This document shows positions 16,676 through 56,495 of a DNA stretch of 64,000 nt, one piece after another. Source of the stretch: Fuerstiella sp. (GTDB lineage Bacteria; Planctomycetota; Planctomycetia; Planctomycetales; Planctomycetaceae); NCBI GenBank assembly GCA_022447225.1, contig JAKVAZ010000011.1, forward strand, positions 124,001-188,000. Reading direction: 5' to 3'. A model generated the notes under the pieces. That model saw nothing but the letters and a program-made list of their open reading frames with translations, searched no databases and was not told the DNA's origin. Position 1 is the first letter of the stretch. Every line of letters starts with the position of its first letter. The position numbers were made by a program, and so were the translations under genes.

Positions 16676-17350
16676 ATCCGTTCCCCGTCACCATCCGTTT
16701 CCATACATGCGGCAATCGAAACCAGCGGCCGACCGGCTGTCAAATCAGGGGTGGGAAAGCAATATCTTTAAATGTTTTTACTTTTCCGCAATGACGAAGG
16801 TCATACGTGTCCGTCTTTGTCTTCATTTCCATAAACAGAGGAGAATTTTCTGTGTTAAGATTTTCTGAATTTTGCAGAAGGCGTCGGGGAAATTAATGGA
16901 GTGTAGCGACTGCCTGTTTGAGTTCTGAAGCAGACTCATGTCAGTGACCGGCGAACTTCCGATTACTGACAGCGCGACGCCGGAATTCAGGTGACCCGTG
17001 AAACCGGGTGACGTCTTGAAACGGTTAACTGTTAATGAACATATCCAGTTCCCGGAAACTATCCCGGTGGATTCTCGCTTCCGCGATGCTCCTGTTCTCT
17101 GGGGACTCCATGTGAATTGGTTCCGTCTGCGCAGAGGGAACGATGGCTGATTTGTCATTTCTTCGGTTGATCCAACGGGAGGCGACCGATTTTGATTTCC
17201 TGTCAGTTGGCTGTTTTTTTTGGGCGATGAGGCCGTTCCTTTAGATATCTGTTTATGGGACGTTTACCCACAGGACTTGGTGGAAGTCTTCCGGTGTGGA
17301 TGTTGTTTTAGCGTTTCTGATTTAAGCGGAAATCTGGACTGGTAACCAAA
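16676..17350. other. Intergenic region upstream of the LexA-like gene, 675 bases
   Basis: I see no coding sequence. A weak inverted repeat, ACCCG/CGGGT, sits near 16990-17010. No palindrome close to the LexA-like start stands out as an operator. The last 130 bases are T-rich and could hold the promoter. Confidence 0.4.
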
Positions 17351-18016
17351 ATGAAATCCGTTTCCAAACGGCAGGCTTTGACACCGCGTCAGCGAGAGAT
17401 TTTTGAATTTATACGTTCAACGATTGTTGACCGCGGCTACGGGCCGACGGTCCGGGAAATCGCTGGCGAATTTGGGATTCGGTCACCGAACGGTGTGATG
17501 GGACATTTGAAGGCCCTTGAAAAGAAAGGACTCATCAGCCGTGAATCCAACATGTCTCGAGCGATTCAGATTTGCACCGGAACCACCAACCGCCTGCGAG
17601 TACCGTTTGATGGCACCGCTGTTTCCGGAGGTCCGATTTGTGCCCCTGTTTCAACAGATCAATTTATCGAATTTGGAGATGTTTTTGACGAAACGGATCG
17701 ATCGACGATTAAGGTCGAAGGTTCTGCATTCGTTCCTCTTGGCATCTGTGACGGTGATTTTTTGATCATCAGCCGGCACAGTCAATGTGAACCGGATACT
17801 CTGGTTGTCACCATTGACGACCGTCAGCAGGTTGATATCTGTCGGATTCCGGAAGACGCAGGCCCTCCGGTTCCGGCAATTTCCGGTGAGTTACCGTCTT
17901 CCGGACAGCGAACCCTGGGGGGCCTTGTTGGCGTGGTGCGCAAAATGCAAGGACTGTCAGCAGTCGAACCAGAGGTCCGTGGTGTCGTCCGTAATCTGCT
18001 GAAAACCAATTCATGA
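17351..18016 (+). CDS. LexA-like repressor with degenerate autoprotease
   Basis: The protein has 221 residues. The N-terminal winged helix (residues 10-66) is a good LexA DNA-binding domain: LTPRQREIFEF, GPTVREIAGEFGIRSPNGVM, HLKALEKKGLI. The C-terminal S24 domain is recognisable (KVEGSAFVPLGICDGDFLI; LGGLVGVVRK). All three self-cleavage elements are altered. The cleavage site Ala-Gly reads Ser-Gly (VSGGPI, 91-96). The nucleophile Ser in VxGxSM reads Ala126 in VEGSAF. There is no lysine between residues 121 and 198, so the general base is missing. It probably binds DNA but cannot self-cleave. It is monocistronic. It may be a paralogue of a true LexA elsewhere. Confidence 0.85.
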   Translation: MKSVSKRQALTPRQREIFEFIRSTIVDRGYGPTVREIAGEFGIRSPNGVMGHLKALEKKGLISRESNMSRAIQICTGTTNRLRVPFDGTAVSGGPICAPVSTDQFIEFGDVFDETDRSTIKVEGSAFVPLGICDGDFLIISRHSQCEPDTLVVTIDDRQQVDICRIPEDAGPPVPAISGELPSSGQRTLGGLVGVVRKMQGLSAVEPEVRGVVRNLLKTNS

Positions 18017-54567: not shown

Positions 54568-55554
54568 TTAGCGAGACAGTCCGAACAGGTCGGCCAGCCC
54601 ACTGCTATTTTTTACTCTGTAAGAAATGTTGCGAAGACGTGAAGGATAGTACGCCTGTGGTTCTTCCGGTGGAGCCGGTGCCGGGACGGCTTCAGCTTCA
54701 GCTTCAGCAGGCGTGCTGTGCTCTGCCGGAGCTGAACCAGCACCGCAGGAGTCGCAGCATCCACTGTCACCACATTCATTGTCACAACATCCGTCCACGA
54801 TTTCGTATCCGCACTCTTCCAGAGCTTCTTCAGCCTGACGTCGCACACCACGGTCGCAGTCGCCGAGTGCACATGTCAGAGCAGAAATTACTTCCGGGCA
54901 GCAGCAGCAATGGTTATCACGAAGCTGGTCGCCGATTTCGTCGGCAGCCTTTTCACGCACTTTTTCATCTGTGTCGTTTAATCCGTAGATGAATGCCTTC
55001 ATGATTTCCGGGTGGCAGGCGCAGTCATATATATCACCCAGGTCGTGCAGCGCACTACGTCGGTCTTTGGCGTAGCAGGCAGTCATTGACGCATGGATCA
55101 GTTTGGCGATATCGCAGCAGTCATCTTGGCTGCAGCAACCTTCGCCACAGCAGTCAGCGGGTGCACTGCATTCAGCGGGTGCACTGCATTCAGCGGGTGC
55201 ACTGCATTCAGCGGGAGCACAGCATTCAGCGGGAGCACTGCATTCAGCGGGAGCACTGCATTCAGCGGGTGCACAGCAGTCAGCGGGTGCACAGCAGTCA
55301 GCGGGTGCACAGCAGTCAGCGGGTGCACAGTTACTATCGCAGCATGGTGGCTTAATGTCCGAACACTTACGCTGATAAGTGTATACATTACTGCTGCATG
55401 GGCGAGAAATCGTCGGTTTGCAGCATTCCGGCTGGCAGTCTTCCGCACAGCCACAGCCTTTGTCGCAACCACTGAGTCCGAACAGACCGGCATCAACGGA
55501 TGCGGTCAGCCCGAACAGTGCGATTGCAGCACTGAACATCCTGATCCAATTCAT
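54568..55554 (-). CDS. Secreted cysteine-rich protein with tandem repeat and HEAT-like domain
   Basis: ATG at 55554, with AAGGAG upstream, opens a signal peptide (MFSAAIALFGLTASVDA) in place of the longer frame from 55617. The 328 residues are very Cys-rich. After CDKGCGCAEDCQPECC comes a 60-residue tandem array of ten six-residue units, CAPADC, CAPAEC or SAPAEC. Then about 130 residues of HEAT-type helices (YGLNDTDEKVREKAADEIGD, CALGDCDRGVRRQAEEALEE) and a second Cys-rich cluster (CCDNECGDSGCCDSCGAG). The tail is Ala/Pro/Glu-rich. It is exported; Cys clusters could bind metals or form disulfides. No function is known. Confidence 0.85.
   Translation of the reverse strand: MNWIRMFSAAIALFGLTASVDAGLFGLSGCDKGCGCAEDCQPECCKPTISRPCSSNVYTYQRKCSDIKPPCCDSNCAPADCCAPADCCAPADCCAPAECSAPAECSAPAECCAPAECSAPAECSAPAECSAPADCCGEGCCSQDDCCDIAKLIHASMTACYAKDRRSALHDLGDIYDCACHPEIMKAFIYGLNDTDEKVREKAADEIGDQLRDNHCCCCPEVISALTCALGDCDRGVRRQAEEALEECGYEIVDGCCDNECGDSGCCDSCGAGSAPAEHSTPAEAEAEAVPAPAPPEEPQAYYPSRLRNISYRVKNSSGLADLFGLSR
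55155..55334. repeat. 18-bp tandem repeat, ten units
   Basis: The core AGCGGGTGCA or AGCGGGAGCA recurs every 18 bases at 55155, 55173, 55191, 55209, 55227, 55245, 55263, 55281, 55299 and 55317. Units differ mainly at two or three positions. It lies inside the cysteine-rich gene and encodes its CAPADC/SAPAEC array; 18 is a multiple of three, so unit gain or loss keeps the frame. The array is also open in several other frames, which is a by-product of the repeat. Confidence 0.95.
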
Positions 55555-56495
55555 TGTGTGTCTCCTTTCATGGGACATCGTTCCGTCGACCTTCCGTTGC
55601 AGTCGTTTCCGATTCATCGTGAGACCATCTGAGAAGTCAGCTGGTCATTCCCTCGACCTGCTACGAAATTCAGACCTGTGATGGGTCGCATTGATACTCA
55701 GATGAGGAAGAATCGGAACCACGTGAAACAGCCGAGGTAAACTTTTCTGTTTCAGGTACGTCAACCCGCTCCGGGTGACGTGCAGTTGCAATTCGAGGGA
55801 CTGGACGAAATATCGTCCCGCTCTATTCGCCGCTTGAACATCTCAACTCGTTTGTCCGGCGATTACTCGTCCCCGCTTTGAGTTGTTTTGTGCCAATCCG
55901 GTAGTTTGGTCAGATTGTTGGCAATCTTCCGGCGACAGATCCCCTACAGACGTTGTCATCCGGTCAAATGGGGTAGTCTGTGGCTGAGTTTCTTACGGAA
56001 TACGATTGTCAATACTGTAGCGAACGAATCGCGCGGATTCCCACAGCAACCGGTTTAAGGTGTTTGACAGAATACAATACGTCGGGGGGACGATTGATGG
56101 TTTTACGAAGCAGATCCGAATCGAAAAGTTTTATTCATTTCGTTGATCTGGGCTGTATGTAACGCCTATGTTTGCTTTGCAGGGAGTATCAGGGGGGAGA
56201 GCTTACCCGGGGAGCAAGCATGGCAATCTCGCTGTTTCTGCGTCAGATCACATGTGTAAGTTAATACTCCCGGACCAACGGTCTGTGTTTTCTTTCGATC
56301 CGCTAAAACGCGAGCTGATCCCCGTCCGGATTCAGGAGCGGTAGCGACTCAATCACCGGAACCGATGCTGAAGACTCTTAAAATGAGGCCTTCGAAAAGA
56401 TTCCGCAGCCTTGCGGCATATCGGGTTGAGTTCGGATGTGCCATTTCGCAAAACACAGAAGGGTGATACCCGTCAGAATACTGCCGAGCAATACC
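55555..56495. other. Intergenic region, 941 bases
   Basis: It is the longest gap in the window. A 60-codon frame at 55980-56162 with a CxxC (YDCQYCSERIARI) is the only possibly coding stretch, and I do not accept it without support. No RNA gene, repeat or terminator could be recognised. Confidence 0.4.

Follow-up and report, generated by a model that had tools for sequence, protein, structure and literature searches.

Loss of the autoprotease residues across a clade of planctomycete LexA proteins suggests a stable repressor outside the SOS response

LexA is the textbook self-destructing repressor, and a lexA-type gene of the planctomycete Fuerstiella sp. whose product has lost its autoprotease residues raises the question of whether such a protein is an error, a relic or a repressor put to another use. 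The gene lies at positions 17351..18016 (+ strand; 221 amino acids, ATG start, TGA stop) of the window, by which we mean the whole 64,000-nucleotide stretch of DNA analysed, and stands alone in its locus; its genome (5.43 Mb, 33 contigs, 97% complete) is henceforth referred to as G000. The preliminary description of the gene had proposed an intact LexA winged helix followed by an autoprotease altered in all three of its parts, and our alignment with E. coli LexA and planctomycete LexA proteins agrees with it on every part. The winged-helix DNA-binding domain (residues 8-71; 17372..17563, +) scored 86.1 bits with PF01726 (LexA_DNA_bind), for which the cut-off is 23.7, and its third helix (residues 46-58; 17486..17524, +; placed from the model and the group consensus) lies inside RSPNGVMGHLKALEKKG, a motif in which the window protein has Gly where most relatives carry Cys. 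The S24-like C-terminal domain (residues 83-199; 17597..17947, +) reached 13.7 bits with PF00717 (Peptidase_S24), under the cut-off of 23.3. A84-G85 of E. coli LexA corresponds to Ser92-Gly93 at the former scissile bond (17624..17629, +), S119 to Ala126 at the former nucleophile (17726..17728, +) and K156 to Cys164 at the former catalytic lysine position (17840..17842, +), so that no Ser-Lys pair occupies the active site; residues 122-197 are devoid of Lys, the flanking lysines being K121 and K198. The window protein is thus like canonical E. coli LexA (TIGR00498) in domain order, winged helix and predicted fold, but differs from it in lacking all three catalytic features and in falling some four bits short of the TIGR00498 lexA cut-off (106.6 against 110.95 bits).

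Sequencing error as the source of these losses is very unlikely, because the nearest orthologue (L035, from Fuerstiella sp. MAG ALOHA_ZT_14, 76% identical), which comes from a separate assembly, is altered at the same three places (Ser-Gly, Ala and Tyr), and the same losses were seen in other assemblies; a lone pseudogene was likewise rejected, since the losses recur across a clade of relatives. An AlphaFold2 model of the window protein built from 19 sequences had moderate confidence (mean pLDDT 74.9, pTM 0.52), and the nearest folds to it in the PDB were LexA structures, including the S119A mutant 1jhh. The whole model matched 1jhh with Z 13.2 over 176 aligned residues at an rmsd of 14.4 Å, a figure that probably reflects a differing orientation of the domains, and the modelled C-terminal domain matched 1jhe with Z 10.5 over 114 aligned residues at 3.2 Å; in VIA-align, the rows ranked after the LexA, lambda and 186 repressors were for the most part common winged helices, and we set them aside. 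Judged from the model, the LexA fold appears to have been kept in the window protein and the chemistry not.

A family-wide search with the window protein gave a match in 162 of 170 genomes. The 152 rows that we compared (151 loci and the window) come from 146 genomes, among which 137 belong to the family; a few rows are paralogues (for example L112, L171, L162 and L170) and not LexA1 proper, as we call the family's usual LexA. Ser, Lys and Ala-Gly were all present in 85 rows, 57 lacked Ser and/or Lys and 10 lacked Ala-Gly only, and all nine rows that came from other families in the class were intact. The window belongs to a Fuerstiella-like group of 34 genomes from genera g1, g6, g40, g41 and g65, henceforth clade I, whose 13 rows on a RecA tree are monophyletic (SH-aLRT 100). 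LexA1 was found in 32 of these 34 genomes (none in G138 and G139), and among the 32 proteins Lys156 (E. coli numbering) is absent from all, in one case through a gap, and Ser119 from 27, while the letters Ala-Gly are retained in three. We rejected a misalignment that masks a nearby Lys, as the Lys156 column is without Lys in every clade I row; in four rows the searched stretch does include a Lys, but this lies after the strand.

Altered LexA1 also occurs outside clade I. Clade II (genera g7, g37, g45 and g57; 11 rows) has Arg at Lys156, and as LexA with Lys156Arg is known to cleave slowly at high pH, these proteins may retain weak cleavage. Genus g66 (8 rows) is variable, with Gly, Ala, Asp or Ser at 119 and Lys, Arg or Gln at 156; g64 (9 rows) and G012 retain Ser and Lys and have lost Ala-Gly, which in the g64 loci (L142, L143, L146, L150, L154-L157 and L160) is replaced by Gln-Gly, Gln-Thr or Gln-Ala; and genera g15, g20, g43 and g46 are also altered, as is one row of the two in each of g54 and g10. 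G012 also has, at G012:C57:12062-12526, a 395-amino-acid open frame with two tandem LexA-type winged-helix matches. With labels assigned by hand (g64 and G012 counted as altered; G011 counted as intact through its copy L162, though an altered copy, L170, is also present; G100 unlabelled; G104 and G018 without a RecA match at E 1e-60), the RecA tree requires six changes between intact and altered, two of which are forced by starred branches. In the full-length LexA1 tree the 67 altered rows all fall to one side (support 60), where long branches meet, and we did not rely on the single origin that it would allow. The tree-based counts suggest that the label changed at least twice and possibly about six times.

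Clade I proteins have gained residues as well as lost them. Cys occupies the Lys156 position in 28 of the 32 members, and (numbered as in the window protein) Asp156 is found in 32, Arg158 in 26, His159 in 29 and a Phe after the nucleophile position in 29, all four being mostly absent from intact LexA1; Asp157 (26 of 32) is common in intact LexA1 too. Together with Cys164 these residues make up a D-D-R-H...C signature, and 26 of the 32 members combine His159 with Cys164. The window protein carries its own version of the clade-specific DDRH, namely DDRQ (residues 156-159; 17816..17827, +), the G001 protein has His159 and Tyr164, and G002 has neither residue; the signature is therefore incomplete in the window's own genus. 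One reading, which we hold to be unlikely, is that the dead protease pocket of clade I has been rebuilt as a sensor that responds, in place of RecA, to redox state, a metal or a small molecule, with the catalytic Lys turned into Cys and the adjacent hairpin gaining the Asp-Asp-Arg-His motif, and that damage sensing was taken over by LexA2 or XRE-S24, two further repressors described below. If so, LexA would have taken on a new role as a stress sensor of another kind, and the genus of the window, whose protein has C164 but Gln for His, may have lost part of the sensor site.

Whether LexA1 is simply a relic, decaying after a takeover by other repressors, can be judged from the rates at which its two halves change. 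Among genome pairs with a RecA identity of 0.75-0.85, 63 clade I pairs had an identity of 0.79 in the helix-turn-helix (HTH) half and 183 pairs of intact LexA1 one of 0.79-0.82, whereas the identity of the C-terminal domain was 0.39-0.43 in clade I against 0.66-0.68 in intact LexA1. This fast divergence of the C-terminal domain would be expected of a relic, as would the state of the same-genus protein of G002, which is strongly diverged with a gap over the Lys156 region and could be undergoing decay, the lack of a box in most altered lexA1 promoters (see below) and the rate in the last 21 residues, for which the comparison of G000 with G001 gave dN 0.330, dS 0.441 and dN/dS ~0.75. Set against this, the same comparison gave dN/dS 0.19 for the whole of lexA1 (dN 0.150, dS 0.788), ~0.085 for the winged helix (dN 0.078, dS 0.919) and 0.17 for the C-terminal domain (dN 0.147, dS 0.844), which has the new conserved residues; moreover, the recognition motif SPNGVMCHLKALE-KGLI hardly varies in either clade I or intact LexA1 over several genera, and the orthologue persists in 32 of 34 clade I genomes. 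The equal conservation of the winged helix, the nearly invariant motif and the low dN/dS therefore indicate that DNA binding is under strong selection, and by the same substitution rates the C-terminal domain of clade I LexA1 is not free of selection either. Overall, we regard decay as a rather improbable explanation for LexA1 as a whole. The reading that we prefer, and consider probable, is that LexA1 is a stable DNA-binding repressor, insensitive to RecA and outside the SOS response, that was converted from an SOS LexA.

Intact lexA1 promoters have a common box. We built an operator matrix from one intact lexA1 promoter per genus (46 genera; consensus TNTGNACANNNGTATATT), and eleven rows taken as paralogues were excluded from the promoter groups. 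In the window, the region upstream of lexA1 (17051..17350, +) contains no recognisable LexA box of the family design, the best matrix score being 5.1 against a threshold of 12.4; a box of another design is possible. As a control in which whole genera were held out, the matrix was trained on half of the intact genera in ten random splits with a 99% shuffle threshold: intact lexA1 promoters of unseen genera passed in 7-12 of 23 cases, about a third to half, in contrast to 1-3 of 66 altered lexA1 promoters (0-3 of 32 in clade I). With the full matrix, 21 of 29 held-out intact promoters passed, a figure that makes the matrix look better than it is, since these rows share their genera with rows used in training, and the altered promoters that passed were those of G052, G053 and G058, all of clade I; there was no pass among the 11 clade II, 9 g64, 8 g66 and 6 other altered promoters. 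At recA, where boxes are rare even among intact genomes, 1-5 of 34 promoters from intact and 0 of 29 from altered genomes passed the genus-held-out matrix; the mean score with the full matrix was 7.4 in intact (n=34) and 2.5 in altered (n=29) genomes (Mann-Whitney p 1.6e-6, kinship ignored). Phylogenetically independent promoter pairs, of which two were supported (six on the whole tree), were too few as contrasts and gave no significance.

Further motif searches added little to this. The Cheo-type dyad GAAC-N4-GTTC was weak on its own as a family operator (with at most one mismatch, in 5/32 and 11/56 promoters against 3.2 and 5.8 in shuffles) and was superseded by the matrix. We found no conserved operator in the altered lexA1 promoters of clade I, and TGNAC-N4-GTNCA showed no genome-wide enrichment that would point to a regulon, with 64 matches in G000 against 74 in the control and 73 in G001 against 79. 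Short shared words do occur in the altered lexA1 promoters of g64 and in those of clade II.

The missing boxes at altered lexA1 and recA promoters mean that the usual SOS targets appear to lie outside LexA1 control. They also bear on the alternative that LexA1 still is the SOS repressor and is inactivated in trans by a protease, such as Clp or Lon after RecA binding. Regulated degradation would be compatible with the loss of self-cleavage, and for HdiR the available part of PMC8565304 describes Clp processing as needed for full derepression, though following the protein's own cleavage; since nearly all altered lexA1 promoters lack the LexA box and no altered recA promoter passes, we find this account very unlikely. 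In the preferred reading of a stable repressor, LexA1 would have been turned from a RecA-triggered, self-destroying SOS repressor into one that no longer self-cleaves, given that Ser, Lys and the Ala-Gly site are gone, and that would still bind DNA as a LexA winged-helix dimer. Going by the promoters, it would have left the SOS circuit for a set of non-SOS targets, and it could be gated by protein level, modification or a ligand.

The same genome does possess a LexA with its cleavage residues, as the preliminary description had anticipated. This paralogue, LexA2, is encoded at G000:C16 (199 amino acids), has AAG, GESM and TLKR intact and scored 160 bits on TIGR00498, over the cut-off that LexA1 misses. 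Its gene heads a mutagenesis operon, lexA2-imuA-imuB-dnaE2, on one strand (L276:1183-7938, -). A LexA2 accompanying an imuA-imuB-dnaE2 cassette is known in Pseudomonas and Xanthomonas, and it is the G000:C16 paralogue, not the window protein, that matches this arrangement. An intact LexA2 followed by imuA and imuB was also found in G001, G002 and G052, and the loci of G000, G002 and G052, which extend far enough, also showed dnaE2. Upstream of the G000 operon lies the box TAATACATTTGTATTA, the only exact TAATA-N6-TATTA match in the genome; G001 likewise has a single match, both lie directly upstream of lexA2, and the reversed control gave 0. The shorter TAAT-N8-ATTA was present in 9/9 promoters examined, all of them from close lexA2 relatives; imuA-linked LexA proteins that are more distant also occur (L122, L125, L167, L169 and L171). 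TAATA-N6-TATTA as the LexA2 box was derived in this analysis alone, apart from published LexA2 boxes. As the box occurs only at lexA2 in G000 and G001, LexA2 looks dedicated to its own cassette: it would sense DNA damage in G000, at any rate where mutagenic repair is concerned, and TAATA-N6-TATTA is the predicted site through which it would govern the lexA2-imuA-imuB-dnaE2 operon. Strong ImuB matches in clade I were confined to G000, G001, G002 and G052 (16 other genomes had weak matches and 14 none), and ImuB matches were found in 6 of 12 genomes with intact LexA1 that were searched.

With LexA-type winged helices in both proteins of one genome, and a modelled LexA1 C-terminal domain that is LexA-like, LexA1 might be imagined as a dominant-negative or tuning partner that forms mixed dimers with LexA2 or competes for its operators and so tunes the imu cassette. 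We give this only a slim chance: the two proteins are no more than 29% identical over LexA1 residues 6-154, their predicted boxes differ (TNTGNACANNNGTATATT for LexA1, TAATA-N6-TATTA for LexA2), and in sixteen clade genomes, all of which except G138 have a LexA1 match, the S24 match is not LexA2 but the protein that we call XRE-S24.

At E 1e-10 or better, 27 of the 34 clade I genomes had one S24 match, which was never LexA1; the S24 matches of clade I LexA1 are far weaker than those of this other S24 protein. The 27 proteins comprise four imuA-linked LexA2 (G000, G001, G002 and G052), one other LexA-like protein (G058) and 16 with a Cro/C1-like HTH, a breakdown that leaves out six (G051, G056, G057, G144, G148 and G149). 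No strong S24 match was found in the remaining seven genomes (G007, G048, G059, G133, G134, G139 and G141), of which G134, G141 and G059 are 99%, 94% and 93% complete; takeover by another S24 protein is therefore not universal. The XRE-S24 proteins of 16 clade genomes have the Cro/C1-like HTH before intact Ala-Gly, Ser and Lys residues (Pfam was run on one of the 16). Their loci are L278:5872-6809 (-), L281:6190-7139 (-) and those of 14 further genomes of g40, g41 and g65. In 14 of the 16, csrA lies directly upstream on the same strand, and the remaining two end at contig ends; of these 14 loci, 10 have TGTTG-N10-CAACA no more than 250 bp from csrA, and the palindrome occurs anywhere in the available locus sequence in 11 of 16. 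From this arrangement it is possible that XRE-S24 is a self-cleaving repressor controlling CsrA. No exact match to the LexA2 box or to the XRE-S24 box was found in the recA promoters available or in the lexA1 promoters. A second S24 protein also occurs with intact LexA1 (for example in G003, G044, G045 and G111) and, as with ImuB, its presence alongside intact LexA1 means that it does not mark the altered state.

The preliminary description had cited cyanobacterial LexA as a precedent for lost catalytic residues, and the parts of PMC7567884, PMC13416735 and PMC7283527 available support this. According to the first two, the LexA of Synechocystis has neither the Ala-Gly site nor the catalytic Ser, is uncleaved, acts outside SOS and has been suggested to be controlled by modification, and the third, as far as its available text goes, further supports a non-cleavable, non-SOS LexA. 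The LexA of Synechocystis sp. PCC 6803, so described, resembles the window protein in having kept its winged helix and lost the Ala-Gly site and catalytic Ser; in planctomycetes, by contrast, the loss is clade-wide and comes with a DDRH motif and Cys in the Lys156 position, and the window genome also encodes an imu cassette and a LexA2 whose cleavage residues are intact. The nearest relatives found belong to planctomycete LexA, and many of these are intact, which suggests that the loss in planctomycetes was independent of the cyanobacterial one. Phage-repressor-like S24 SOS regulators are described for Bacteroidetes in the available part of PMC8565304; the XRE-S24 proteins of clade I resemble these and HdiR in joining a Cro/C1-like HTH to intact S24 residues, but differ from them in that their loci adjoin csrA in 14 of 16 cases. 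Among the matches listed in a literature search on LexA in Planctomycetes, on Fuerstiella and on degenerate paralogues, which covered subscription papers thinly, there was no report of the clade. How an SOS circuit comes apart and is rewired can be studied in this family as a natural experiment, in which the cleavage residues were lost and the DNA-binding half stayed under strong selection, often beside repressors with their cleavage residues intact, and the predicted operators of two such repressors are testable material. Inferring an SOS response from a LexA annotation could mislead for these genomes.

The surroundings of lexA1 are partly shared across clade I, in which contig ends cut many loci. 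The thioredoxin-like gene upstream of lexA1 in the window has a relative at 11 of 32 clade I loci, on the opposite strand in one, and the convergent downstream gene for a sigma-54 response regulator has one at 16 of 32 (positions are given for 12 loci; one is 4 kb away). A PIG-L family deacetylase (window:14304-15071, -), closest to bacillithiol BshB1 and under the BshB1 cut-off, has a relative near lexA1 at 10 of 32 clade I loci. Elsewhere in the window, the frame at 54568-55617 (-) encodes a short Cys-rich repeat run (CAPADC/CSAPAE) followed by a HEAT-repeat match.
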